A stretch of 42,032 bases of DNA from NCBI GenBank assembly GCA_028714235.1, contig JAQTMQ010000007.1:1-42032 (forward strand). The letters are read 5' to 3'. The notes beneath the pieces are model-generated. The model saw only the letters and a program-made list of their open reading frames with translations, was not told where the DNA came from and made no database searches. Made by a program: the position numbers and the translations under genes. Position 1 is the first letter of the stretch. Each line of letters opens with the position of its first letter. Positions 6,525-39,288 of the stretch are shown piece by piece. Origin of the DNA: Candidatus Iainarchaeum sp. (lineage in GTDB: Archaea; Micrarchaeota; Micrarchaeia; Burarchaeales; Fermentimicrarchaeaceae).

Positions 6525-6537
6525 CCTCACCACTCGC

Positions 6538-6813
6538 TCATTTCTCTTCCGCGACCATCGCAATCGCCTTGACCGGGCACACGCTTGCGCAAACGCCGCA
6601 GCCCTTGCAGTAATCGTAATCGGTCACGGGAAAGGTGCGCTCCGCGGGCTTCCTGCCCGCCTCAACCCCGGTGATGCACGGCTCGGGGCACAATTGCTGG
6701 CACGTGCCGCACTTGATGCATTTGGCCTCGTCCGTCTTTGGCTTGAAGCCCACCCTCCACGCGCCGGTCTTGTTTTCGAGGCTTGAGCCCGGCTTTGCAA
6801 CAGGTAACAGCAT
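6538..6813 (-). CDS. porD: Pyruvate:ferredoxin oxidoreductase delta subunit (2x[4Fe-4S])
   Basis: 91 aa with CIKCGTCQQLCPEPC and CKGCGVCASVCP motifs, in the por operon. Confidence 0.95.
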   Translation of the reverse strand: MLLPVAKPGSSLENKTGAWRVGFKPKTDEAKCIKCGTCQQLCPEPCITGVEAGRKPAERTFPVTDYDYCKGCGVCASVCPVKAIAMVAEEK

Positions 6814-6821
6814 GACAGCAC

Positions 6822-7355
6822 CTACGCGGTGGAATTATAGCACTCCTCAATCGCCGCGACGTTCTTTTCCGCGATTTCGCCCTTGAACCTGTGGCGGATG
6901 GCGCGCTCGAGCGCGTCAAGCGGGACGAGCCCGGTGACTTTCGCGAACGCGCCGAGCATCGCCGTGTTGACGATGGGCCTGCCCAGGTGCTTCACCGCGA
7001 TTCCCGTCGCGTCAACGATGAATACCTTCCCGCCCTTAATCCCGATTTCGCCCCTGCCTTTCTTGGTGTTGACTATCACGACGCCGCCCGCCTTAAGGCC
7101 GGAAGCGACGTCCGTCACGGCAAGCAGGGAGGCGTCCAGCACCATGACGACGTCCGGCTCGTAAACGTTTTGGTGGATGCGCACAGGCTTCTCGTCAATC
7201 CTGCAGAACGCCTGCACGGGCGCGCCCGTCCTCTCGACGCCGAAGAACGGGAAGGACTGCGTCCACTTGCCGCCTTCCGCGGCGGAAACGGCGAGGAGCT
7301 CGACCGCGGTGACCGCGCCCTGCCCGCCCCTCCCGTGCATCCGCACTTCAATCAT
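6822..7355 (-). CDS. porC: Pyruvate:ferredoxin oxidoreductase gamma subunit
   Basis: MIEVRMHGRGGQGAVTAVELLAVSAAEGGKWTQSFPFFGVERTGAPVQAFCRI. Confidence 0.95.
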   Translation of the reverse strand: MIEVRMHGRGGQGAVTAVELLAVSAAEGGKWTQSFPFFGVERTGAPVQAFCRIDEKPVRIHQNVYEPDVVMVLDASLLAVTDVASGLKAGGVVIVNTKKGRGEIGIKGGKVFIVDATGIAVKHLGRPIVNTAMLGAFAKVTGLVPLDALERAIRHRFKGEIAEKNVAAIEECYNSTA

Positions 7356-7430
7356 GGAACCACTGCGAAAACTTTGGCGCGCAGGGTTTAAAACCCGAAC
7401 CGCGACAGGCGTCGAACGCCTCCGAAAGCT

Positions 7431-7961
7431 TTATTGGCTGCGCGCGATTCTTCCGACTTTCCTGTAGGGCTTGCTCGTGGGCGACTCCATGCATTCGAAG
7501 AGCGCCTGCGTGCACCGCGTCCCGGCGCGCAGAACAATGGAGTACGGGGCAAGGTTCACGATTTCAAGCACCTGGCGGTTGTCCGAGCCGGGCTGGATGA
7601 AGGAGGACGTGACGTGGATGGCAAGCCCCCTGCGCGCGTACCTGCTCCTGCCTTCAAGGTGGCCGCAGACGTTGTCCGGAAGGGTTATCCGCTCCACCGT
7701 CTTCCCGAGGGCGAGCTCGCCGGGTTTCAGCGTGATTTTGTCCGCGGCAACCTTTTTCGTCACTTTCCCGAGGTCTATTTTGTCGAGCTCAAGCGTTTTA
7801 CCGTGCACCTTTCCGTCCCTGAACTTCCAGAACTCGCTTGAAAGCGTCAAATCCACGGAGCCCGGTCCAATCTGGTCCGGCTTCAGCGCAGGGGTAAACC
7901 TAATCACGCCCTTCCTTATCGCCGCCCTCACGTCCACGTCGGAGAAAACCAAACACTCCAC
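7431..7961 (-). CDS. dcd: dCTP deaminase / dUTPase family
   Basis: IGPGSVDLTLSSEFW...LKPGELALGKTVERITLPDNVCGHLEGRSRYARRGLAIHVTSSFIQPGSDNRQVLEIVNLAP. Start codon uncertain (GTG 7961 or internal). Confidence 0.9.
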   Translation of the reverse strand: MECLVFSDVDVRAAIRKGVIRFTPALKPDQIGPGSVDLTLSSEFWKFRDGKVHGKTLELDKIDLGKVTKKVAADKITLKPGELALGKTVERITLPDNVCGHLEGRSRYARRGLAIHVTSSFIQPGSDNRQVLEIVNLAPYSIVLRAGTRCTQALFECMESPTSKPYRKVGRIARSQ

Positions 7962-8003
7962 CTTCAGCTCTTTCTCGCGGCTTGTTTGCGCGCGCCGCCC
8001 TTT

Positions 8004-8501
8004 TTATTGTTGCTGCCGCCCCCGCAAGCCCGCCTTCAGGGCAGCGAGGCAGGCGAGCGCGAGCAGCAGGACGAGCGCGGCGTCAATGCAGACGAGCGAG
8101 TGCGCGAAGGGGTAGGCGAGCCCGAAAACCGCCTGGTGGAGCGGCAGGCTTGAGCCATCGATGATTTCGTAAAGCGAGTACCGCGTGCTTGTCGCCGGCC
8201 AGAAAAGGGGCGCGCCCAGCGCGTCAAGGAAATCCACGGCAGGGTGCGTGAGGGCCCCTGCAAAGCCCCACAGGAGCTCGCGCCTGCGGAAGAAAACGTG
8301 CAAGGCCAGGGGGATGAAGGCGAAGGCAATCGAGTGCGTGAAGCCCCTGTGGCCGCCGAGCCCGCCCGGAATGAACAGGCCGAAAACGAGGTCTATGTCC
8401 GCCAGGTAGGCGAAAAAAAGCATTACGGCAAGCGCGAACCACCCCTGCCTTGACCAAAGCCAGACAATCGCCGTGGCCGCGGCGTGGCCGAAGACCGCCA
8501 T
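8004..8501 (-). CDS. Membrane-bound metal-dependent hydrolase (YdjM/DUF457-like)
   Basis: 165 aa, multi-TM, HxxxxxxLW-type N-terminus MAVFGHAAATAIV, LADIDLVFGLF, HRGFTHS motif. Confidence 0.8.
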   Translation of the reverse strand: MAVFGHAAATAIVWLWSRQGWFALAVMLFFAYLADIDLVFGLFIPGGLGGHRGFTHSIAFAFIPLALHVFFRRRELLWGFAGALTHPAVDFLDALGAPLFWPATSTRYSLYEIIDGSSLPLHQAVFGLAYPFAHSLVCIDAALVLLLALACLAALKAGLRGRQQQ

Positions 8502-8563
8502 AAAACCCCTTTCTTGCTTGGCGGCGCGTTCTTTTTAAACCGTTTCCAGCAAATATTCAAGCG

Positions 8564-9310
8564 ATGGATTCGGTTCTCCTCTGGATAATCGCGGCAACCG
8601 CGCTGGACGGGCTGCTCGCGCTCGTGGGCGTCTTGACGCTCTGGATGAAGCCTGAAACGTTCAGCAAGTCCTTGATGTTCATGGTCGCGTTCTCCGCGGG
8701 CACGCTGCTCGGGGGCGCGCTCTTCCACCTGCTTGGCGAGGCGGCGGCAACGATGGACCTTGACACGGCAACGGTGCTGCTCGTGGTCGGGTTCTGCTCG
8801 TTCTTCGTGCTCGAGCGCGTGTTCAAGTGGCACCACTGCCACGAGGGCCGCTGCGACGTGCACCCCTTCACCTACCTCATCCTGCTCGGGGACGGCGTGC
8901 ACAACGTGATTGACGGCCTCCTGATTGCGGCGAGCTTCATGGTCGGGATTCCGTTCGGCATCGTAACCTGCGTCGTGGTCTTCAGCCACGAGATACCGCA
9001 GGAGCTCGGCAACTTCGCGGTGCTGGTTTACGGGGGATTCGACAGGAAGAAGGCGCTCCTCTACAACCTGCTCGCGCAGCTGACGTGCGTAATCGGGGGC
9101 GTGGGGGGGTATTTCGCGGCGCAGGCATTCGCGGGAATATCCGGGGTTCTGCTCGCGTTCGCCGCCGGAGGGTTCATTTATATCGCCGCCTCGGACCTGA
9201 TTCCCGAGCTCCACAAGGAGGAGAGCACGGCGAAGGCGTTCAGCTCGTTCGGGGCGTTCGCCATGGGCGTCGTATTCATGTACGCGGTCAAGGCCTTCTT
9301 CAACGTTTAG
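8564..9310 (+). CDS. ZIP family metal transporter
   Basis: 248 aa; GDGVHNVIDGLLIAASF and FSHEIPQELGNFAVLVYGG ZIP signatures; TATA-like tttttaaac about 26 nt upstream. Confidence 0.93.
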   Translation: MDSVLLWIIAATALDGLLALVGVLTLWMKPETFSKSLMFMVAFSAGTLLGGALFHLLGEAAATMDLDTATVLLVVGFCSFFVLERVFKWHHCHEGRCDVHPFTYLILLGDGVHNVIDGLLIAASFMVGIPFGIVTCVVVFSHEIPQELGNFAVLVYGGFDRKKALLYNLLAQLTCVIGGVGGYFAAQAFAGISGVLLAFAAGGFIYIAASDLIPELHKEESTAKAFSSFGAFAMGVVFMYAVKAFFNV

Positions 9311-9314
9311 CAGG

Positions 9315-9926
9315 ATGGGGGTGAGTGGAGTGGCGGGCGAAGCGAAACCGCTCAAGGAGAAGCTGAAGAACGGAGTCGAGGGGCTTTCGGCGCGGCAGCT
9401 CGCGGAGCACCACGGCGTCCTCTACGCGGGCTACGTGAAAAAGCTCGCGGAGATTGAGGCGAAGCTCGCGACCGCGGACCTGACCGAGGCGAACGCGACC
9501 TACAGTTTCGTTGGCGAGCTCAAGCGCGAGGAGTCGTTCTGCACGAACGCCGTGACGCTCCACGAAGCCTACTTCGACTCCCTCGGCGGGGACGGGAAGC
9601 CATCGGGACGGCTCGCGGAAATGATTGCGCGCGACTTCGGCTCGGTTGAGAGGTGGGACGCGGATTTCCGCGCGGCGGGGCTCGCCGCGAGGGGGTGGGT
9701 CGTGCTCGCATTCAACTGGAACGACATGAGGCTGCACGACTATTCGCTTGACATCCACACGCACGGGGCATGGGGCGCGAGCCCGATTCTCGTGCTCGAC
9801 GTGTACGAGCACGCCTATTTCCTCGACTACGGCACGGCCCGCAAGAAATACATTGACGCGTTCATGAGGAACGCGGACTGGGCCGCCGCGAACGCGCGCG
9901 CGGAAAAGTGCGGAATCTACGGCTAG
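9315..9926 (+). CDS. sod: Superoxide dismutase, Fe/Mn family
   Basis: LSARQLAEHHGVLYAGYVKKL, VTLHEAYFDSL, GWVVLAFNWNDMRLHDYSLDIH, PILVLDVYEHAYFLDYGTARKKYIDAF: metal ligands H/H/D/H present. Confidence 0.9.
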   Translation: MGVSGVAGEAKPLKEKLKNGVEGLSARQLAEHHGVLYAGYVKKLAEIEAKLATADLTEANATYSFVGELKREESFCTNAVTLHEAYFDSLGGDGKPSGRLAEMIARDFGSVERWDADFRAAGLAARGWVVLAFNWNDMRLHDYSLDIHTHGAWGASPILVLDVYEHAYFLDYGTARKKYIDAFMRNADWAAANARAEKCGIYG

Positions 9927-9995
9927 GGAAAGACGGGAACCGCCCGGCGCTGCTTGCCGCCACGGTCCGTGTGGAGACGCGAGCGCCAGATTCGC

Positions 9996-10004
9996 TTTTT
10001 TTTT
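9996..10004 (+). terminator. Poly-T tract downstream of SOD, putative archaeal terminator
   Basis: ttcgcttttttttt (T9) about 70 nt after the SOD stop; archaeal termination is T-tract driven. Confidence 0.5.
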
Positions 10005-10111
10005 AAGTCCCGCCTAATTTTTTCCGTTCGCGCCCTGAAAACGTTTAAATAGCATCGCGGGCAGATTCCTCACGTCAATATTAGGGCTGCCAGTGTTTGG
10101 AGTTGGTCTTC

Positions 10112-11167
10112 ATGGAGAACCTCATTATGGACGCATTGAGCCACAAGGCAAGCGAGGCGCAAGGCGAGTTCTTCGAGACGCCGCGCATAGTCGTCGCGGG
10201 AATCGGGGGCGCGGGATGCAACACGGTGAACCGGCTTTCGCGCATGGGAATCCGCGGCGCGGAGCTCGTCGCGGTCAACACGGACAGGAAGCACCTCGGC
10301 ATCCTTAGCGAATCCGTGAAAAAAATCCTCATCGGGCCCCAGCTCACGCGCGGCCTCGGGGCGGGAGGCTTCCCGGAGGTGGCGCACAAGGCGGCGGAAG
10401 CGAGCAGGAAGGAGCTCGAGGAAATCTTCAACGGGACGGACCTCCTCTTCCTCGCCTCAGGCATGGGAGGCGGCACCGGGACGGGCGCTTCGCCGGTCGT
10501 GGCCGACATCGCGAGGAAGTCGGGCGCGATAGTCGTCGCAATCGTGTCCTACCCGTTCGTATTGGAAAGGAACCGCCTCAGGACCGCCGAAGACGGGCTG
10601 AACGAGCTCCGCAAGTCCGCGGACACGGTCGTGGTGATTGACAACAACCGCCTCGTCGCCCTCGTGCCCAACCTTCCCATCGACCAGGCGTTCGCGGTCG
10701 CGGACGAGATTACCGCGCGCGCCGTGCGCGGGATAACGGAAACCATCACGACCCCGTCGCTCATCAACATAGACTACGCGGACGTGCGCGCCATCATGCA
10801 GGGGGGCGGCGTCGCGATGATTGCGGTCGGGGAGGCGAAGGGGCAGGACCGCGTGCGCGAAGTGGTCCACAACACGCTTACCCAGAAGCTCCTCGAAGTG
10901 GACTATTCCGACGCCTCCGGCCTGCTTTTGCACCTCACGGGCGGCCCGGACATGACGCTTGGCGACGCGAACGAAATAGGCGAGCTGATTTCGCAGAACT
11001 CCTCGCCCACCGCGAACGTGATTTGGGGGGCGCGCATGGACCCCGCGTACGCGGGAAGAATCGAGGCAATCGCCATCTTCACGGGCATCAAGTCGCCTTA
11101 CGTGGTCGGAAGGACGAGCGTGGAGCCGCAGAAAAAGAAGGCGGACTGGGAACTGGGCGGAGTGTGA
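10112..11167 (+). CDS. ftsZ: Cell division protein FtsZ
   Basis: IVVAGIGGAGCNTVNRLSRMGIRGAELVAVNTD, SGMGGGTGTGASPVVADIARKSGAIVVAIVSYPF. ATG at 10112; ORF track start 10097 is TTG. Confidence 0.97.
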   Translation: MENLIMDALSHKASEAQGEFFETPRIVVAGIGGAGCNTVNRLSRMGIRGAELVAVNTDRKHLGILSESVKKILIGPQLTRGLGAGGFPEVAHKAAEASRKELEEIFNGTDLLFLASGMGGGTGTGASPVVADIARKSGAIVVAIVSYPFVLERNRLRTAEDGLNELRKSADTVVVIDNNRLVALVPNLPIDQAFAVADEITARAVRGITETITTPSLINIDYADVRAIMQGGGVAMIAVGEAKGQDRVREVVHNTLTQKLLEVDYSDASGLLLHLTGGPDMTLGDANEIGELISQNSSPTANVIWGARMDPAYAGRIEAIAIFTGIKSPYVVGRTSVEPQKKKADWELGGV

Positions 11168-11206
11168 GCCCGGTTCCCGCCCGTTTTTTAATTCCGTCCC
11201 ACCCCG

Positions 11207-11356
11207 CTACTCCACCGAGTGAATCATCCCGTACTGGTCCACCTTGAACCTGTGCTTCGGGTTTATCGGGCAGAAGTATTCGTCCGAAAGGCTGTCTTTT
11301 TCGAGCGTGACGGTTATCCCCTTCATCAGGCTGCACTTCGTGCAATAATACGCCAT
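11207..11356 (-). CDS. 49-aa zinc-ribbon microprotein
   Basis: Own reverse-strand translation: MAYYCTKCSLMKGITVTLEKDSLSDEYFCPINPKHRFKVDQYGMIHSVE*. CxxC...CxxxxH putative Zn ligands; 24 nt downstream of the M50 protease stop on the same strand. Confidence 0.75.
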   Translation of the reverse strand: MAYYCTKCSLMKGITVTLEKDSLSDEYFCPINPKHRFKVDQYGMIHSVE

Positions 11357-11380
11357 TTCATCACCCTTTCCCGCCGATTC

Positions 11381-12997
11381 TCATCGCCACAGCCATGGGA
11401 GCGCGTTCACGATGAACGCGACGACCACGAGGACGACGACCGCCTTGGTCACGGTCAGGCTGCGGTAAAGCGACTTCTCGCCAAGCGTGAGCGAGAGGAT
11501 GCGGTATCCGTCGAAAGGCGGTATCGGGAGCAGGTTGACCATCCCCACGAGCACGTTGAGGACGAACGCGAGCCCTATGAAGTTGAAGAGGAATCCTACG
11601 TACGGCTTGTCGGCCGAAAGGGCGTTCACGAAGGCGACGAAGCCGTAATTCCTTTCCGAAACCTGCAGGCCGGTCCCGGGCTCAAGGTAATCCCCGTATT
11701 GCGTGGGCAGAAGCGAGGCGTTCGCCGGGCGGTTTCCCCGGGCCGCCGTGAAAAGCGTGCCGTTGCGCGCCAGGATGTCAACCCGGCTCGCGTTGCCGGT
11801 CGAGCCAATCGCAGCGGCGAGGCTGCCGATTGTCGTCACGTTCACGCCATTCCATTGCGCGATGACCGCGCCCGCGGGGACGATGCCGTACGCGGTCCCG
11901 TTCTCGGCGACCGCGTCAACCTGCACGTACCGGGTTCCCAGAAGCGGGCTCGGGAAGCTCGCCAGCACGAGGAAATAGAACGCGAGGAAGACGAAGAAGA
12001 ACGCCGTGGCGGCGTAAATGTTCGCGGTCGAGCCCGCGACGAGGACGCGGTTCTGGGGGTCCCGGTCCATTTTCGCGAGCTTCTCCTCGTCCGGGTCGAC
12101 GAACGCGCCGAACGGGAGGACGCCGAAGAACACTATGCCCGCCGATTTGAGGGGAATCCGCGCGACCCTCGCGAGCACCGCATGCGCGCCCTCGTGGACG
12201 ACCAGTATCAGCGCGAGCGCGAGCACCCCTTCCACGAGCGGGATGTTTATCCCGGGCAGTATCGGCGAAACGCCCGGCAGAGCGGTCGAGGCCGCGTTGC
12301 CCCCGCTTGCCCCGGTCGCGAGCGCGAACGCCGAAATCCCCATCTTCATCAGGATGTCCACCGCGTTGAACACGACGTAGTACGCGAGAAGGAACGCGAG
12401 GCCGCCGGACATGACGAGCAGGACGGGAACCATCGCTTCCAGGAGCAGGATGTAGGACAAGACCATCCCGAACGGGTCGCCCGGGGTCGCCGAAACCTCG
12501 GCTCCGGTCAGCAAGTCCTTCTCGATTCCGGAAAGGTTTATGAGCTCGAGCGATAGCGGGGCGACGAACGGGAAGATGGCGGACCAGAAAACGAACAGGA
12601 AAACCATTCCCGCGACCACTGTCTTCTTCGGAATCCTTTTTTCGAAGATGAACAGCGAGAACAGCCCGAACCCGGCCACGAGCCCCATGTCGGCAAGGAA
12701 AATCCAGAGCCCGGGCGCCTTGCGCGCGACCGTGTCAAGGAACCCGAGGCCTTTCCGCGTCCTGAAAAGCAGGAGGCCGAGCTCGCCTTCCAAGTCAAGG
12801 AGCCTTTGGAGCGACAGGCTGCACGCCGCGAGCAGCACCACCGCGAGCACGGCTTTCGCCGCACCCTGCAAACCGGAGAACAGTATCAGGCTGAACGCCG
12901 CAAGCGTGACGGCGACGGCTGCGAAGGCGAGGAACAGCTTCAGGGCGCGCGCACCGCTCCCGTCCCGGCTTGCCGGGCGGGTCCGTGAAGTAGGCAT
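11381..12997 (-). CDS. M50 family (site-2-protease-like) membrane metallopeptidase with PDZ-like region
   Basis: 538 aa from ATG 12997 (MPTSRTRPASR...); LILVVHEGAHAVLARVARIP (HExxH), later NLLPIPPFDGYRIL (NxxPxPPxDG). Confidence 0.92.
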   Translation of the reverse strand: MPTSRTRPASRDGSGARALKLFLAFAAVAVTLAAFSLILFSGLQGAAKAVLAVVLLAACSLSLQRLLDLEGELGLLLFRTRKGLGFLDTVARKAPGLWIFLADMGLVAGFGLFSLFIFEKRIPKKTVVAGMVFLFVFWSAIFPFVAPLSLELINLSGIEKDLLTGAEVSATPGDPFGMVLSYILLLEAMVPVLLVMSGGLAFLLAYYVVFNAVDILMKMGISAFALATGASGGNAASTALPGVSPILPGINIPLVEGVLALALILVVHEGAHAVLARVARIPLKSAGIVFFGVLPFGAFVDPDEEKLAKMDRDPQNRVLVAGSTANIYAATAFFFVFLAFYFLVLASFPSPLLGTRYVQVDAVAENGTAYGIVPAGAVIAQWNGVNVTTIGSLAAAIGSTGNASRVDILARNGTLFTAARGNRPANASLLPTQYGDYLEPGTGLQVSERNYGFVAFVNALSADKPYVGFLFNFIGLAFVLNVLVGMVNLLPIPPFDGYRILSLTLGEKSLYRSLTVTKAVVVLVVVAFIVNALPWLWR

Positions 12998-25415: not shown

Positions 25416-26447
25416 ATGGACAAGCCCCTGGATTACGCTTCCTCCGGGGTTGACCGGGAAGGCCGCGAAAAGGCGAAAGCCGTCCTTTCCTCAATCCGGA
25501 ACACCTACTCGCTGTCCCGCTTCGGCGCGGTCGTCGAAACGCCTTTCAACATACTTTACCCCGTGCTCCCCAGCGGCAAGCTCTACCACGTGAAAACCGC
25601 GGACGGGGTGGGAACGAAGGTCCTGCTTGCGGAAATGGCGGGAAGGCACGACACGATAGGCATTGACGCGGTCGCGATGGTGGCAAACGACTGCATAAGG
25701 TGCGGGGCCGACCCCATCGCGCTGACCGACGTGATTGACGTGAAGAAGTCCACCCCTGGCCTGTTGCGCGAGCTTCAGAAGGGGCTTGTTTCCGGCGCAA
25801 TGGAGGCGGGCTGCCCGCTCGTCGGCGGGGAGACGGCGGACCTGCCCGAAATCATGTCGGTTCCCTACCACATCAACGCGGACTGCGTGGGGTCGGTCGA
25901 GCGCGCCAAAATCATTGACGGCTCGAAGATTAGGCCGGGCGACGCCGTAATCGGGCTGCGCTCGTCCGGAATCCACAGCAACGGCTTGAGCCTGGCGCGG
26001 CGCGCGCTTTTCAGGAAATGGGGCGGAAAGTATTCCGGGGACGAGGTTGTCGAGTCAACGGGAAGAAGCATCCTGCTCGAGGCGCTCACGCCCACGAAAA
26101 TCTACGCGAGGCAGTTCGCGAAGCTGAGGGACGAGGCCGAAATACTGGGCGCGGTGCACGTAACCGGCGACGCGTACCTCAAGTTCGGCCGGCTTTGCAG
26201 GCACGGGTTCAGGTTCAACAACTTCAAGCCCCAGGAAATCTTCGGCCTCATCCGCAAGGCGGGCAGCGTTTCCATGGAGGAGATGTATAAGACGTTCAAC
26301 ATGGGCTGGGGCTTCGCGGTCGTGGTGCGGAAAGGCGACGTGGAGCGCGCGCTGCAAAGCCTTGGGAGCGGCGCGGAAGTGATTGGCGAGGTAACAAAGC
26401 AGGGCATAACCGTTGAGAGCGACGGGAAGGGCGTCGTTTTGCGCTGA
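25416..26447 (+). CDS. purM: Phosphoribosylformylglycinamidine cyclo-ligase
   Basis: HVKTADGVGTKVLLAEMAGRHDTIGIDAVAMVANDCIRCGADPIALTDVIDV...GLRSSGIHSNGLSLAR; TATA ttaaaata at 25388-25395. Confidence 0.96.
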   Translation: MDKPLDYASSGVDREGREKAKAVLSSIRNTYSLSRFGAVVETPFNILYPVLPSGKLYHVKTADGVGTKVLLAEMAGRHDTIGIDAVAMVANDCIRCGADPIALTDVIDVKKSTPGLLRELQKGLVSGAMEAGCPLVGGETADLPEIMSVPYHINADCVGSVERAKIIDGSKIRPGDAVIGLRSSGIHSNGLSLARRALFRKWGGKYSGDEVVESTGRSILLEALTPTKIYARQFAKLRDEAEILGAVHVTGDAYLKFGRLCRHGFRFNNFKPQEIFGLIRKAGSVSMEEMYKTFNMGWGFAVVVRKGDVERALQSLGSGAEVIGEVTKQGITVESDGKGVVLR

Positions 26448-26462
26448 AACTGGACTGGTTTG

Positions 26463-29426
26463 ATGGCTGAAAGGATTTACGTCGGCTTCAGGGAAGGCGT
26501 CACCGACGCCGCCGGGAACGCGGTGCTGCGGCGCGTGAAGGACGATTTCGGGTTTCCTGCGGCAAGCGTCCGGACGGTTGACGTCTACACTTTCGACTGC
26601 GCGCTTTCCCCGCAGGAGCTTGAGAGGCTTGCGGGCGGCCTGTTCGCAGACCCCGTCGTACAGGTTTTCAGCGTGGGCAAGCCGCTTGCCGCGGGCTTCG
26701 ACTGGATTGTGGAAGTCGGCTTCAAGCCCGGCGTCACGGACAACGCGGGAAAGACGTCGCGGGAGGCGGCCGAGGAAATGCTCGGGCGCAAGCTTGGCGG
26801 CGACGTCTACACTTCAAGGCAATACCTTTTCAGGGGCGGCATGACGCGCGGGCAGGTGGAGTCGGTTTCGTCCAGGCTTCTCGCTAACGACTTGATTGAG
26901 AGGCGCATGATTTCGGATGCCGCCTCATGGAACCCGGAGAGCGGGTTCGGGCTCATCGTCCCGAAAGTGGTGCTTGCGCACGAGCCGGAAGTGGGGGAGG
27001 TGGACCTCAAGGTCCGCAACAAGACGCTCCTCAAAATCAGCTCGGAGCGCCTGCTCGCCCTGGACTTGCGGGAGATGAAGGCAATCCAGAAGCATTTCCG
27101 CGACCCGGTCGTCCGCGAGGGGCGCGCGAAGCTCGGCCTTCCAGCCAATCCCACGGACGTGGAGATTGAATGCCTCGCCCAGACGTGGAGCGAGCACTGC
27201 AAGCACAAGATTTTCAACGCCGCGATAAGGTACGATGACGGAAGCGGCAAGGCGAGGCGCATCAACTCGCTTTTCAGGTCCTGCATCCGGAAGTCAACCG
27301 AGCGCACCGCGAAAAAAGTTGACTGGCTGGTTTCGGTTTTCGTGGACAACGCGGGCGTGTTCAGGTTCAACGACTCGTGGAACCTCGCGATGAAGGTGGA
27401 GACGCACAACGCGCCTTCCGCGCTCGACCCCTACGGCGGCGCGCTCACGGGGATAGTGGGCGTGAACCGCGACGTGATGGGCACGGGGAGGGGGGCGCGC
27501 CTCGTCGCGAACACGGACGTCTTCTGCTTCGCCGACCCGGCCTGGAAAAAGGAGGTGCCGCCGAGGCTCCACCACCCCAAGCGCGTTTTCGAGGGCGTGA
27601 GGAGGGGCGTGGAGCACGGGGGAAACAAGCTCGGCATCCCCACCGTCAACGGGAGCATCGTTTTCGACGACAGGTACCTCGGGCGGCCGCTCGTCTACTG
27701 CGGCACCGTCGGCATCATGCCTTCGGCCGTTTGCGGGGCGGATTCGTCCGAAAAAACGGTGAAGCCCGGCGACCTCGCGGTGATGGTGGGCGGAAGGGTG
27801 GGAAGGGACGGCATCCACGGCGCGACGTTCTCCTCGCAGGAGCTGAACGAGGTTTCCCCTGTCACCGCGGTGCAGCTCGGCGACCCGATTACGCAGAAGC
27901 GCATGATGGATTTCCTCCTTGAGGCGCGCGACCTGTGCATGTTCAAGGCGCTCACGGACAACGGCGCGGGCGGGCTTTCCTCCTCCGTGGGCGAGATGGC
28001 CCAGCTTTCCGGGGGCTGCGAGATAATGCTTGACGCGCCTCCCCTCAAATACGCTGGCCTGAACCCGTGGGAAATCCTCGTTTCCGAGTCGCAGGAGAGG
28101 ATGACCGTCGCGGTTTCGCCGGAAAAATTCGGCGAGTTCAAGGCGCTCGCAGACAGGCGCGGCGTGGAATGCACCGCGGTCGGGAAATTCACGGATTCGG
28201 GCGATTTCGTCTGCACGTACGGGGGGAAAACGGTGGCCTTCATCCCCATGAAGTTCCTGCACGGGGGCGTGCCGCAGATGAAGCTTTCGGCAAGGTGGGA
28301 GGAGAGGAGGAACCCGGAGCCGGAAATGCCGGACGAGCAGGACCAGACGCAAAACCTTTCCGCGCTCCTTTCGCGCCTCAACGTCTGCTCGAAAGAGTAC
28401 GTCGTGAGGCAGTACGACCACGAGGTGCAGGGCGGCTCGGCGGTCAAGCCGCTCATGGGCGCGCAGAACGACGGCCCGAGCGATGCCGCGGTCGTCCGCC
28501 CGCTTCTGGAGTCGGGCGAGGGCGTGGTGGTCTCGCACGGCATCTGCCCCCGGTATTCCGACATCGACGCCTACTGGATGGCGGCGTGCGCGGTTGACGA
28601 GGCGCTGCGGAACTACGTTGCCACGGGCGGCTCGCTTTCTCGCGTCGCGTGCCTCGACAACTTCTGCTGGTGCGACCCGGTGAAAAGCGAGAAGACGCCC
28701 GACGGCGAGTTCAAGCTCGCGCAGCTCGTGCGCGCGAACAAGGCGCTCTACGACTTCACAGTCGCCTACAGGATGCCCCCGATTTCGGGGAAGGATTCCA
28801 TGAAGAACGACTACGTGGTTGGCGGCGTGAAAATCTCCATCCCCCCCACCCTGCTAATCAGCGCCGTGGGGAAAATCGGGGACGTCTACAAGGCGGTGAC
28901 GGTTGACGCGAAGAAGGCGGGCGACCTTGTCTACGTCCTGGGCGTGACGAGAAGCGAGCTCGGCGGCTCGGAGTATTACGCCATGAAGGGTTTTGTCGGG
29001 AACTCGGTTCCCAAGGTTGACGCGAAAGCGGCCTACAAGCTGTACCGCGCGCTCGAAAAAGCGGTTTCAAGGGGCTTGCTCGCCTCCTGCCACGACTGCT
29101 CGGACGGGGGGCTTGGCGTCGCGCTTGCGGAAACCGCGTTCTCGGGGATGCTGGGAATGCAGCTGGACTTGCGCCTCGTGCCCCGGGAAGGCGCGGAGAG
29201 GAACGACTCGCTCCTCTTCTCCGAGTCGCAGAGCAGGTTCGTGGCCACGGTTTCGCCCGAAAACGCGCAAAAATTCGAGAAAGCCATGAAAGGAAACCAA
29301 TTCGCGAGAATCGGGGAAGTGAACGGCTCGATGAGGCTCGTTGCGAAGGGCCTCAATGGCGCTAACGCGATTGACGCCGACATCGCAGAGCTGAAGAAGG
29401 CTTGGAAAAGGACGCTGGGCTGGTGA
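26463..29426 (+). CDS. purL: Phosphoribosylformylglycinamidine synthase, PurS-like tandem + PurL fusion
   Basis: 987 aa; CLAQTWSEHCKHKIFNAAI, MKVETHNAPSALDPYGGALTGIVGVNRD, ALTDNGAGGLSSSVGEMA, ISGKDSMKNDY; N-terminal duplicated PurS-like VGFREGVTDAAGNAVLR / VGFKPGVTDNAGKTSRE. Confidence 0.95.
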   Translation: MAERIYVGFREGVTDAAGNAVLRRVKDDFGFPAASVRTVDVYTFDCALSPQELERLAGGLFADPVVQVFSVGKPLAAGFDWIVEVGFKPGVTDNAGKTSREAAEEMLGRKLGGDVYTSRQYLFRGGMTRGQVESVSSRLLANDLIERRMISDAASWNPESGFGLIVPKVVLAHEPEVGEVDLKVRNKTLLKISSERLLALDLREMKAIQKHFRDPVVREGRAKLGLPANPTDVEIECLAQTWSEHCKHKIFNAAIRYDDGSGKARRINSLFRSCIRKSTERTAKKVDWLVSVFVDNAGVFRFNDSWNLAMKVETHNAPSALDPYGGALTGIVGVNRDVMGTGRGARLVANTDVFCFADPAWKKEVPPRLHHPKRVFEGVRRGVEHGGNKLGIPTVNGSIVFDDRYLGRPLVYCGTVGIMPSAVCGADSSEKTVKPGDLAVMVGGRVGRDGIHGATFSSQELNEVSPVTAVQLGDPITQKRMMDFLLEARDLCMFKALTDNGAGGLSSSVGEMAQLSGGCEIMLDAPPLKYAGLNPWEILVSESQERMTVAVSPEKFGEFKALADRRGVECTAVGKFTDSGDFVCTYGGKTVAFIPMKFLHGGVPQMKLSARWEERRNPEPEMPDEQDQTQNLSALLSRLNVCSKEYVVRQYDHEVQGGSAVKPLMGAQNDGPSDAAVVRPLLESGEGVVVSHGICPRYSDIDAYWMAACAVDEALRNYVATGGSLSRVACLDNFCWCDPVKSEKTPDGEFKLAQLVRANKALYDFTVAYRMPPISGKDSMKNDYVVGGVKISIPPTLLISAVGKIGDVYKAVTVDAKKAGDLVYVLGVTRSELGGSEYYAMKGFVGNSVPKVDAKAAYKLYRALEKAVSRGLLASCHDCSDGGLGVALAETAFSGMLGMQLDLRLVPREGAERNDSLLFSESQSRFVATVSPENAQKFEKAMKGNQFARIGEVNGSMRLVAKGLNGANAIDADIAELKKAWKRTLGW

Positions 29427-29429
29427 AAC

Positions 29430-29456
29430 AAACCCCTTTTAGCCCAAAAGGGGTTT
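29430..29456 (+). terminator. Perfect 11-bp hairpin with T tail between purL and the R-M gene
   Basis: AAACCCCTTTT-agccc-AAAAGGGGTTT then ttct; starts 4 nt after the purL stop (TGA 29424-29426). Confidence 0.65.
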
Positions 29457-29510
29457 TTCTTCGATTTCCCCAAAAACGTAATATTGCTGGATGAGAAACA
29501 GGATGCTTGC

Positions 29511-32231
29511 ATGGAAAAAAACGAGGCGAGGGCCAAGCTCGCCGAACTGGTGGAAAAATACCGGCGCTACGAGTCCGCGGGCAAGCTCAAAGGGCTTAAC
29601 GAGGCGGACACGAAAGCCGTATTCATAGAGCCCCTTTTTGAGGCGCTCGGCTGGGACGTCAGGAACTTGGAGGAAGTCTCAAGAGAAGAGTCCGTGCTGA
29701 AAGGACGCGCCGACTACGCTTTCAGGCTTTCCGGAGTCATCCGCTTCTTCGTCGAGGCAAAGTCCGCAAACGCGCCCCTGGAAGAAAAAGAGGCATGGCA
29801 GGCAATCCGCTACGCCTATTCGCGCTCAGTCCCTTGGGCGGTCCTCACAAGCTTCACTGAACTCGTCATCTACTCCTCGGAATGGAAAGCGACAAGAAGC
29901 GAGGAGAGCCGATTCCTGCGCTTCACCGTTGACGAATACGTTTCCCGCTTCGATGAACTATGGATGCTGGGCAGGGAAGGGATGGCCGAGGGTTCCCTCA
30001 ACACAGATGCCGAGAGGGTGGGTAGGAAACTCAAGCGGGAGCCCGTGGGAACCGCCCTTTTCAAGGACTTCATGGAATGGCGCACCATTCTTGCGAAGGA
30101 GGTGGAAAAGCATGACCCCCGCAACAAGCTCTCAAAAGACCAGATTGACGAAGGCGTGCAGCGTTTCCTCAACCGGCTGATTTTCATCAGGACTTGCGAG
30201 GATCGCGGCTTTGAGAATGAGCAACTTCGGGAAATCGTTCGCGTTTGGCGGGAAAAACGGGAGCGCAGGATAACTAGGTATGTCGGGGACATGATTGAAG
30301 GCTTTAACTACACTTACGACAGCGACATCTTCTCGCCCCACATGGCAGGAGAACTCCTCATAGAGAACGACGTAATGGAGCGCGTCATAAGCGAACTCTA
30401 CGATTATGACTTCAAGGCGATTGACGCCGACGTGCTCGGCAACATTTACGAGCAATACCTCGCAACCATCCTGCGCAAGGGCGGCGGCCTCCTTGACCGC
30501 GGCGCCAAGCGCAAGGAAATGGGCATCTACTACACGCCAACCTACATTGTAGACTACATCGTGAAGAATACCCTCGGGGAGCTTATCTCCAAGGCGAGGA
30601 AGCCGGAAGACCTGCAAAAAATCCGCGTCCTCGACCCTGCATGCGGCTCCGGCTCGTTCCTCATCCGCGCTTACGACGCGCTTTCGCATGCATATGAAGC
30701 CAAGAACGGGGGCGACCACGCGCTCCTGTCCGGCAATGTTTCCCGCAACGCCTCGCTCATCCTCACGAAAAATCTCCATGGCGTCGACCTGGACAGGAAA
30801 GCGATAGAGATAGCCGAGCTCAACCTGCTTTTGCGCGCGGCAACTAGGCGGGGACTTCTCCCCATGCTCTCGGACAACATAAAGCAGGGCAATTCCCTCA
30901 TTTCCGGCACGGAAGAGGAGCTGGAAAAATACTTCGGCCCGCATTGGCGCGACAAGCACCCTTTCAACTGGGAAGACGAATTCCCCGAAGTAATGAAGGA
31001 AGGGGGATTTGACGTAATAATCGGGAACCCGCCGTACGAAAGACTGAAACAGCTTAGCGACAAGAAAGAAATGACGATGTTGACTAATTACTTTGCCGAC
31101 ATTTATGCATACCAACGTGGAAACTTGAATCTTTACAAACTCTTTCTTGAGCGTTGTTTCAAGCTCCTCAAGCCTGGCGGATACTTCGCCATGATATTCC
31201 CAACTGCATTTTTGGGAGAGGAAAGTTCGGCCCCCTTGCGGAAACTGTTCTTTGAAGGAGCGCATGTAATCAGTATCCTGCAATTTCCTGAGAGTGCTAA
31301 GGTGTTCGGGAGCGTGACTCAGGATGTTACTGTTCTCGTTTATAAAAAAGAGAAGAAACAGGATTACCCGCTAACGATAAATATGAATCGCAGATTTGAG
31401 ACCATGACTGAAGAAGGCATAAGTATAACGAAAGAGGAATTGAACTTGCTAAGCACCGATTATCAAATACCCATGTTCAAGTCGCCCAAGGTCGAAATCA
31501 AAATTCTTGAGAGAATATCTGCCTTTTCGCCTTTTGGGGGTGATCCGAAAAACCCTCCCGTAGGAATAACGCGAGAAGGGCAACTTCACGAAACTAACGA
31601 TGCAGAATTTATGACTACTGACCCCACCGGAGACTTGTTGATAAAAGGCATTCATTTGGACAGGTACTTCACAGACTTAAACCCTAGAGGTACCCAGCCT
31701 CGTTGGGTCAAAAAAAAGGCATTTTTGAAAAAAAAGCCTAACGTATCCGAGGCATTGCAGGCAGAGCGGATTATCGGGATGAGCACACTAAATAAGCAAG
31801 CGAAACGAAGGTTTATTTTCTCAATACTACCTCCCGGCTACGTCATTACCAATAATGTTAAATACCTAAATGTGAACGATATGAACCTGAGCCCAGATTA
31901 TGTACTAGGGCTGTTGAATTCAAAACTGCTTGAATGGCGGTTCAGAGTCTTTTCGCAAACAAATCGCGTTTCGAATTATGAAGTTGAGAGCCTCCCGATT
32001 GTCCGCGCAAGCAAGGAGAAACAGTCACCAATAGCTGACAGAGCAAAACGACTTCTTGAACTTAGAGCCTATCTTAACGACCCCGCAAAGAAGGCGGAAT
32101 ATGACTATAAACGCGTCGAAGCAGAAGCCGCGCGCCTTGAGCGCGAGATTGACGAGCTGGTTTATGACCTGTACGGCTTGACCGCGGAAGAGCGCGCCGT
32201 AGTTGAGGAGAGTTTCAAGGAGCGAATTTGA
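29511..32231 (+). CDS. Type IIG restriction-modification enzyme (PD-(D/E)XK nuclease + N6-adenine methylase + TaqI-like specificity domain)
   Basis: GRADYAFRLSGVIRFFVEAKS nuclease motif; DPACGSGSFLIRAYD (motif I); VIIGNPPYERL (motif IV); C-terminal LNSKLLEWRFRVFSQTNRVSNYEVESLPI. Confidence 0.92.
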   Translation: MEKNEARAKLAELVEKYRRYESAGKLKGLNEADTKAVFIEPLFEALGWDVRNLEEVSREESVLKGRADYAFRLSGVIRFFVEAKSANAPLEEKEAWQAIRYAYSRSVPWAVLTSFTELVIYSSEWKATRSEESRFLRFTVDEYVSRFDELWMLGREGMAEGSLNTDAERVGRKLKREPVGTALFKDFMEWRTILAKEVEKHDPRNKLSKDQIDEGVQRFLNRLIFIRTCEDRGFENEQLREIVRVWREKRERRITRYVGDMIEGFNYTYDSDIFSPHMAGELLIENDVMERVISELYDYDFKAIDADVLGNIYEQYLATILRKGGGLLDRGAKRKEMGIYYTPTYIVDYIVKNTLGELISKARKPEDLQKIRVLDPACGSGSFLIRAYDALSHAYEAKNGGDHALLSGNVSRNASLILTKNLHGVDLDRKAIEIAELNLLLRAATRRGLLPMLSDNIKQGNSLISGTEEELEKYFGPHWRDKHPFNWEDEFPEVMKEGGFDVIIGNPPYERLKQLSDKKEMTMLTNYFADIYAYQRGNLNLYKLFLERCFKLLKPGGYFAMIFPTAFLGEESSAPLRKLFFEGAHVISILQFPESAKVFGSVTQDVTVLVYKKEKKQDYPLTINMNRRFETMTEEGISITKEELNLLSTDYQIPMFKSPKVEIKILERISAFSPFGGDPKNPPVGITREGQLHETNDAEFMTTDPTGDLLIKGIHLDRYFTDLNPRGTQPRWVKKKAFLKKKPNVSEALQAERIIGMSTLNKQAKRRFIFSILPPGYVITNNVKYLNVNDMNLSPDYVLGLLNSKLLEWRFRVFSQTNRVSNYEVESLPIVRASKEKQSPIADRAKRLLELRAYLNDPAKKAEYDYKRVEAEAARLEREIDELVYDLYGLTAEERAVVEESFKERI

Positions 32232-33031
32232 TGGAAAACGTGAGGGCGATCGTGTTCACGGGCTTCGGGGTGAACTGCGACTACGAGACGGCGCGCGGTT
32301 TCGAGCTCGCGGGCGCGCACGCGGACAGGGTTCACATAGAGGACCTTATCTCCAAAAAATACTCCCTTGACGACTACCAGGTTCTCGCCCTCCCCGGGGG
32401 ATTCTCCTACGGCGATGACATCGCGTCCGGCAAGGTTTACGCGAACAAGCTCAAGTACCACTTGTCAGGAGAGCTTGAAAAATTCGTTTCGGACGGCAAG
32501 CTCGTAATCGGCATTTGCAACGGATACCAGATGCTCGTCAAGGCCGGCCTGCTGCCGGGATTGGACGGGGATTACGGGTCGCAGAAGGCGACGCTCACGT
32601 TCAACGATTCGGGCAGGTTCGAGTCGAGATGGGTCAAGTTGAAGGCAAACCCGGCCTGCAAATGCGTTTTCACGAAAGGCATCGACGCGATTGACCTGCC
32701 GGTGCGGCACGGGGAAGGCAAGTTCATCCCGATAAGCGAGGAGGTGAGGGTGAGGCTGCACTCCGAGAACCTCATCGCCTTCAGGTATTGCGACGGGGCG
32801 GGAAACGTCGCGGGCGAGTACCCGCTGAACCCCAACGGCTCGATTGACTCAATCGCCGGCATCTGCGACCCCACGGGAAGGGTTTTCGGGATGATGCCGC
32901 ACCCGGAGGCGCACCTTTTCCGGCACAACAACCCGCATTGGGCGAGGGAGAAGTGCTCCGACCCGGGCGGAGAAGGCGCGGGCTTGAAGGTATTCAGGAA
33001 CGCGGTCGAGCACGCGAAGGAAAGGCTTTGA
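32231..33031 (+). CDS. purQ: Phosphoribosylformylglycinamidine synthase glutaminase subunit
   Basis: MENVRAIVFTGFGVNCDYETARGFELAGA...LALPGGFSYGDDIASGKVYANKL...VIGICNGYQMLVKAGLLPG; ATG overlaps the R-M stop (TGATG). Confidence 0.95.
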   Translation: MENVRAIVFTGFGVNCDYETARGFELAGAHADRVHIEDLISKKYSLDDYQVLALPGGFSYGDDIASGKVYANKLKYHLSGELEKFVSDGKLVIGICNGYQMLVKAGLLPGLDGDYGSQKATLTFNDSGRFESRWVKLKANPACKCVFTKGIDAIDLPVRHGEGKFIPISEEVRVRLHSENLIAFRYCDGAGNVAGEYPLNPNGSIDSIAGICDPTGRVFGMMPHPEAHLFRHNNPHWAREKCSDPGGEGAGLKVFRNAVEHAKERL

Positions 33032-38031: not shown

Positions 38032-39288
38032 GTGCATCGGGTGGGTTTCCTGGAAAAACGCGATCCGGAGATTTTCAATGCCATCAGGGGCGAAATCGGG
38101 AGGCAGAGGGGGACGCTTGAGCTCATCGCGTCCGAAAACTTCACGAGCCTCGCGGTCCTGGAAGCGCAGGGCTGCGTCATGACGAACAAGTATTCGGAAG
38201 GCTACCCGGGCAAGCGGTATTACGGGGGAAACGAGTTCATCGACGTCGCGGAAAACCTCGCCCGCGACCGCGTGAAAAAGATTTTCAATGCCGAGCACGC
38301 GAACGTGCAGCCGCATTCCGGCTCGAGCGCGAACATGGAGGCGTATTTCGCGGTCTTGAAGCTCGGCGACAAGATTTTGAGCCTCTTCCTCCCGGAAGGC
38401 GGCCATTTGTCGCATGGGAGCCCGGTCAACTTCTCCGGCCAGTTCTACAAGATTGCGCACTACCACCTCGACCCGGAAACCGGGATGCTTGACTTCGACG
38501 CGATTAGGAAGGCGGCGCTTGCCGAAAAGCCGCAGATGATTTTGTGCGGCTATTCCGCCTATCCGCGAACCGTTGACTTCAAGGCGTTCAAGGAGATCGC
38601 GGACGAGGTCGGCGCGGTGATGATGGCGGACGTCGCGCACATCGCGGGGCTGATTGCCGGGGGCGAGCATCCCCACCCGTTCCCCTACGCGGATATTGTT
38701 ACTACCACCACGCACAAGACGCTGCGCGGGCCGCGCGGGGCCGTAATCATGTGCAGGGAAAAATACGCGCAGGCGGTCGACAAGGCGGTTTTCCCCGGGA
38801 TGCAGGGGGGGCCGCTTGACCACGCGATTGCCGCGAAAGCGGTGTGCTTCGGCGAGGCGATGAAGCCCGAATTCAGGGGTTACGCGCGCCAAATCGTCTT
38901 GAACGCGAAGGCGCTCGCCGACGAGCTGATGGGCAGGGGCTTCAAGCTCGTTTCAGGCGGCACGGACAACCACCTCATGCTCGTGGATTTGCGCAGCAAG
39001 GGCTGCACGGGAAAGGAGGCGCAGGTTTGGCTTGAGGCCGCGGGCGTAACCGCGAACAAGAACATGGTGCCTAACGACGACAAGTCGCCTTTCGTCACTA
39101 GCGGCATCCGCCTCGGCACCCCGGCGCTCACGACGCGCGGGATGAAGGAAGGCGAAATGCGCGAGATTGGCGGAATGATTGACAGGATTGTCGCGTCGAA
39201 GGGCGACGCGGCGGTGGCGGCGAAGGTGAAGGGCGAAGTGTCCGCGCTTTGCGCGCGCTTCCCGCTTTACCCGGAGCTTGAGTGGTGA
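38032..39288 (+). CDS. glyA: Serine hydroxymethyltransferase
   Basis: [41 protein letters not shown]...[18 protein letters not shown]. Start GTG 38032 or 38041. Confidence 0.97.

Follow-up and report, generated by a model that had tools for sequence, protein, structure and literature searches.

The window, a stretch of 42,032 nucleotides from a Micrarchaeota-type archaeon, contains a restriction-modification (RM) gene between two genes of purine synthesis, purL and purQ. How did a defence gene come to lie there, and on what does the expression of purQ then depend?

The purine cluster and its restriction-modification gene

All genes of the cluster lie on the plus strand. The first is purM (25416–26447; NCBIfam purM above cut-off), followed by purL (26463–29426; NCBIfam FGAM_synth_II above cut-off, intact to the C-terminal TLGW), the RM gene (29511–32231; 906 aa, ATG start, complete) and purQ (32231–33031; PF13507 and NCBIfam FGAM_synth_I above cut-off, intact). 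The preliminary description had placed a single-chain RM gene between purL and purQ of a purine operon. Pfam and PADLOC searches agree with it on the gene and its position, whereas the setting is narrower than was supposed, as the cluster comprises only purM-purL-purQ, with purF and purD found on a different contig. PurS appears to be fused to PurL in this lineage, since the N-terminal part of PurL (window 26463–27100) matches the PurS-like domain PF02700 (1.1e-8). Because purF and purD are encoded elsewhere and purQ is the sole copy in the genome (one match in the search of its own genome), the purine pathway appears to be in use.

The open reading frame at 29484–32231 is present as originally delimited, but position 29484 is an upstream TTG, and the true start is most likely the ATG at 29511, where the aligned family members begin. 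At the other end, the RM stop (TGA, 32229–32231) and the purQ start (ATG, 32231–32233) have one base in common within TGATG (32229–32233), exactly as had been noticed. Overlaps of 1 or 4 nt occur in 19 of 243 same-strand neighbour pairs of the host genome, so this overlap represents ordinary operon-style packing. Tight packing downstream is also common in the RM family, as several other members (L047, L072, L076, L077, L080 and L085) overlap, or lie within a few nt of, an unrelated gene on the same strand.

The RM protein exhibits Pfam matches above cut-off to Eco57I (4e-36), N6_Mtase and TaqI_C, together with an HSDR_N-like start, and its best PADLOC model is REase_MTase_IIG (E 4e-114). The catalytic motifs D68, E82-x-K84, DPACGSGSF (invariant at almost every position) and NPPY are intact and conserved in all 16 complete family members aligned; we take them to be those of a PD-(D/E)XK nuclease joined in one chain to an N6-adenine methyltransferase of the gamma type. 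The predicted domain order is thus an N-terminal nuclease (D68, E82-x-K84), a methyltransferase (DPACGSGSF, NPPY) and a C-terminal recognition domain. Such a composition, with the three domains in one polypeptide, identifies the protein, at the level of sequence, as a Type IIG enzyme, which would probably be active. It corresponds to the single chain of Eco57I-like Type IIG enzymes (PADLOC REase_MTase_IIG, PDLC03604), but represents an archaeal subfamily, about 100 aa shorter than the best model; the match to NCBIfam TIGR02987 is below the cut-off of that model. The BREX protein PglX and the MADS methyltransferase were rejected as alternatives, with the NCBIfam PglX and MAD2 models scoring far below their cut-offs; none of the nine neighbouring genes tested with PADLOC matched a partner or any other defence gene.

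Among the phylum's 301 genomes, 81 contain relatives of the RM protein, many of which match weakly or only in part, and the named organisms among the matches are mainly Candidatus Micrarchaeota. The viral contigs searched contained no relative, which speaks against carriage by a known virus. The recognition half is far more variable than the rest (11–35% identity to the window protein over residues 501–800) and has a lower GC content, here as in the majority of the other members; the abrupt fall in GC around position 31,050 is therefore a family trait, and a recent swap of a low-GC recognition domain in the host alone is ruled out. The insert as a whole has a GC content of 0.51, compared with about 0.63 in the surrounding stretch of the genome.

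Empty junctions in related genomes

The RM gene is absent from all 64 other loci of the phylum in which purQ follows purL. In 30 of these the gap from stop to start ranges from -8 to 209 nt, while in the further 34 it is below 500 nt between the matched ends. The two closest relatives possess a spacer of only 4 nt (CTGGTGA-agtg-ATGG and CTGGTGA-aaag-ATGG), compared with the 2804 nt that separate purL from purQ in the window, and the PurL and PurQ proteins of the window align with those of the relatives to their very ends, i.e. both genes are intact. These empty junctions rule out an ancestral arrangement shared by all relatives, which had been considered at the outset; judging from the sequence comparison, the RM gene is a derived insertion between purL and purQ.

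The RM protein extends by three residues (ERI) beyond the usual end of its family, and the TGATGG of the RM/purQ join is present also in the relative L003, so the stop codon of the RM gene may derive from the target. At the ends of the insert we found neither inverted repeats nor a target duplication; insertion with a long target duplication can be dismissed, as no direct repeats beyond the TGA flank the insert.

The entry of an RM gene, in the same orientation, between functionally linked genes that relatives keep side by side is a published kind of event. PabI-family systems have been detected, by comparison of related genomes, between the genes for glutamate synthase subunits and between histidine genes (PMC4615327; PMC10273834). 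In those cases as in ours the RM genes separate biosynthetic genes of linked function and share their strand; however, the PabI-family examples are two-gene restriction-glycosylase systems of Helicobacter and Campylobacter, whereas in the window a single Type IIG gene sits within a purine cluster of an archaeon, overlapping the following gene by 1 nt on one side and bordered by a hairpin element on the opposite side. The present locus adds unusually clean empty-site evidence, and provides a clean archaeal example of a biosynthetic operon entered by a defence gene. What goes beyond the published cases is the hairpin element, which is dispersed, and a second insert in another genome (G116), both described below.

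Transcription, translation and the hairpin element

The purL and RM genes are separated by 84 nt of non-coding DNA. A terminator-like hairpin element (29427–29475, plus strand) directly follows the purL stop; its 11-bp perfect stem begins a few bases past the stop codon and is followed by TTTTTCTTCGATTTCCCC / TTTTTCTT, with a T-run of five Ts (fold z -1.95). Promoter and terminator statistics were derived from 442 kb of host genome stretches, window included. Hairpin-plus-T sites occur at only 3 of the 276 gene ends sampled, the one at purL being the strongest, and T-runs of at least five are about three times commoner after genes without a close same-strand follower than inside operons.

The element belongs to a dispersed family. 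A search of the 301 genomes with the pattern ACAAACC, a hairpin of variable sequence, then GGTTTTTC[CT]T[CT]GATTTC yielded ten copies in five genomes (L155-L164), while the reversed control yielded none: the window copy and one other in the host genome (G000:C6:38584-38623), the remainder in G043, G048, G094 and G117. The hairpin arms vary among the copies, while the flanks are conserved. In G043 at least three of the five copies start immediately after the end of a tRNA called by ARAGORN, and a fourth, by eye, after a tRNA-like 3' end; in G117 one copy starts at a stop codon. The second host copy sits in a tRNA-Ser(TGA)-like gene (G000:C6 about 38551–38770, L126/L134), for which ARAGORN makes no call and which, as read by eye, appears interrupted at three points, the element being one of the inserts. 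Other tRNAs of the host genome also bear intron-like inserts. The pattern was found neither in the closest relatives nor in the viral contigs, the window hairpin has no Rfam match, and no such hairpin occurs in the 90 nt upstream of other RM family members, so it is not a regular companion of the family. The element is apparently previously undescribed, and may behave as a terminator, a mobile mini-element or an intron-like sequence; lying as it does at a gene join, next to tRNA ends and within one tRNA gene, it merits a separate study.

A promoter motif derived from 104 first genes in the host genome (TTTTAAAA-like, mostly 25–45 nt before the start) gave scores of 8.6 for purM, with a strong TATA-like site at -28, 1.1 for purL, 4.8 for the RM gene and 0.6 for purQ, compared with a median of 7.0 for first genes. 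The candidate RM promoter TAATATTGCTGG (29479–29490, plus strand, -32 from the ATG) scores higher than 92% of within-operon starts, yet 77% of first genes score higher still. The 60 nt upstream of purQ contain no promoter-like site, in agreement with the original observation that the overlap leaves no room for one. The latter had been coupled to two alternatives, i.e. that purQ relies on RM transcription or on promoters within the RM gene; since no site in the last kb of the RM gene is better than shuffled sequence, the former is most likely and the latter finds no counterpart. The Shine-Dalgarno sequence AAGGAG (32217–32222, plus strand) lies inside the last RM codons, eight nt before the purQ ATG, and stands in place of the GGTGA that the relatives exhibit at the purL stop; similar words precede 71% of within-operon starts, compared with 29% at a control position.

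Taken as a whole, we regard the following reading as probable. A single-gene Type IIG cassette would have entered the roughly 4-nt purL/purQ spacer in the host lineage, with neither gene damaged. The purM and purL genes would now constitute one transcription unit, whose transcript would end at the terminator-like hairpin, and RM-purQ another, starting at the RM gene's own weak promoter; purQ would ride on the RM transcript and be translated from the Shine-Dalgarno sequence in the RM 3' end. Against a separate RM-purQ unit count the only moderate score of the RM promoter and the T-run of just five Ts, and against a strong terminator the related element inside a tRNA gene of the same genome; read-through from purL into the RM gene may occur. 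Should purQ truly depend on the transcript of the RM gene, insertions of this kind would offer a simple route to RM genes that are hard to lose.

Or perhaps purM, purL, the RM gene and purQ form one operon, with the RM gene under the purM promoter and purine demand, and the hairpin terminating partly or not at all? All four genes share a strand, the purM promoter is strong while that of the RM gene is moderate, and the hairpin copy inside the tRNA-like gene is presumably transcribed through. On the other hand, the joins elsewhere in the cluster are tight, whereas the RM gene is set off from purL by an 84-nt non-coding stretch that contains the 11-bp hairpin, the T-run and the TATA-like site, and we consider a single operon rather unlikely. 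With these signals in between, insulation of the RM gene from the purM promoter is more likely than control by it, and the suggestion of the preliminary description that restriction is tied to purine status finds no support here.

A second Type IIG insert and the persistence of the gene

When the positions of purQ and of the RM relatives were compared throughout the phylum, one further genome stood out, G116 (L165, contig G116:C58). Here purQ (6526–7302), a Type IIG-like gene (7366–9576), a frame of 231 aa (9564–10259), purL (10295–12421), purF and purD follow one another on one strand. As in the window, a Type IIG RM gene lies among purine genes, in their orientation, and parts members of the purL and purQ families. 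Yet the gene order is opposite, PurL is short, and the RM protein belongs to a different subfamily (about 23% identity over the methyltransferase); by these differences the insertion, in a distant family, is most likely independent of that in the window. Its occurrence in so distant a relative, which makes the window one of two apparently independent cases at this gene pair, is a small surprise. Among 71 linked pairs (64 purL-then-purQ, six purQ-then-purL including G116, and the window), only the window and G116 contain inserts of more than 600 nt, and both inserts are Type IIG. A rough guess, with some one hundred such genes, about 1,200 positions in each genome and the junction present in a quarter of the genomes, gives a chance expectation at this named junction of about 0.02; the figure, reckoned after the fact, is suggestive.

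That linkage to an essential gene stabilises the RM gene, as the preliminary description proposed, is plausible by analogy, the idea being already published for other operon insertions (PMC4615327, PMC10273834), with maintenance of the operon via post-segregational killing proposed in PMC4615327. For the present locus it would mean that loss of the RM gene removes purQ expression or triggers such killing, and that the site was selected. The independent insert in G116, and the fact that it and the window are the only large ones, would fit; but the cases are only two and the expectation post hoc, the single-chain Type IIG enzyme joins cutting and marking in one protein, so that post-segregational killing by this family is putative, and the essentiality of purQ in the host is an assumption. 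We consider this version unlikely, though it is compatible with the favoured reading of an inserted cassette and a separate RM-purQ unit, to which it would add a reason for the persistence of the gene. Under the favoured reading itself, persistence may be helped as a by-product, as deletion of the RM gene would tend to harm purQ expression.

We are more doubtful still of a broader proposal, in which Type IIG genes of Micrarchaeota settle repeatedly, and under selection, at the purL/purQ junction, glutamine-dependent purine synthesis has come to rely on a defence transcript, and the join was formed at a dispersed hairpin element that settles at the 3' ends of genes and tRNAs. Finally, an assembly artefact wrongly joining the RM gene between purL and purQ might be suspected in a draft genome of 43 contigs, with an insert of lower GC and a genus represented in the comparison by a single genome, but it is very improbable, given that the insert meets purL precisely at its stop and purQ precisely at its start, with both genes intact, that the low-GC recognition half occurs in most family members, and that the hairpin beside purL occurs once more in the host genome.

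In G116, in contrast to the window, the end of the recognition domain is found in a second frame, that of 231 aa, which overlaps the Type IIG-like gene; this two-frame arrangement may reflect a frameshift, an error in sequencing or a genuine division of the gene.
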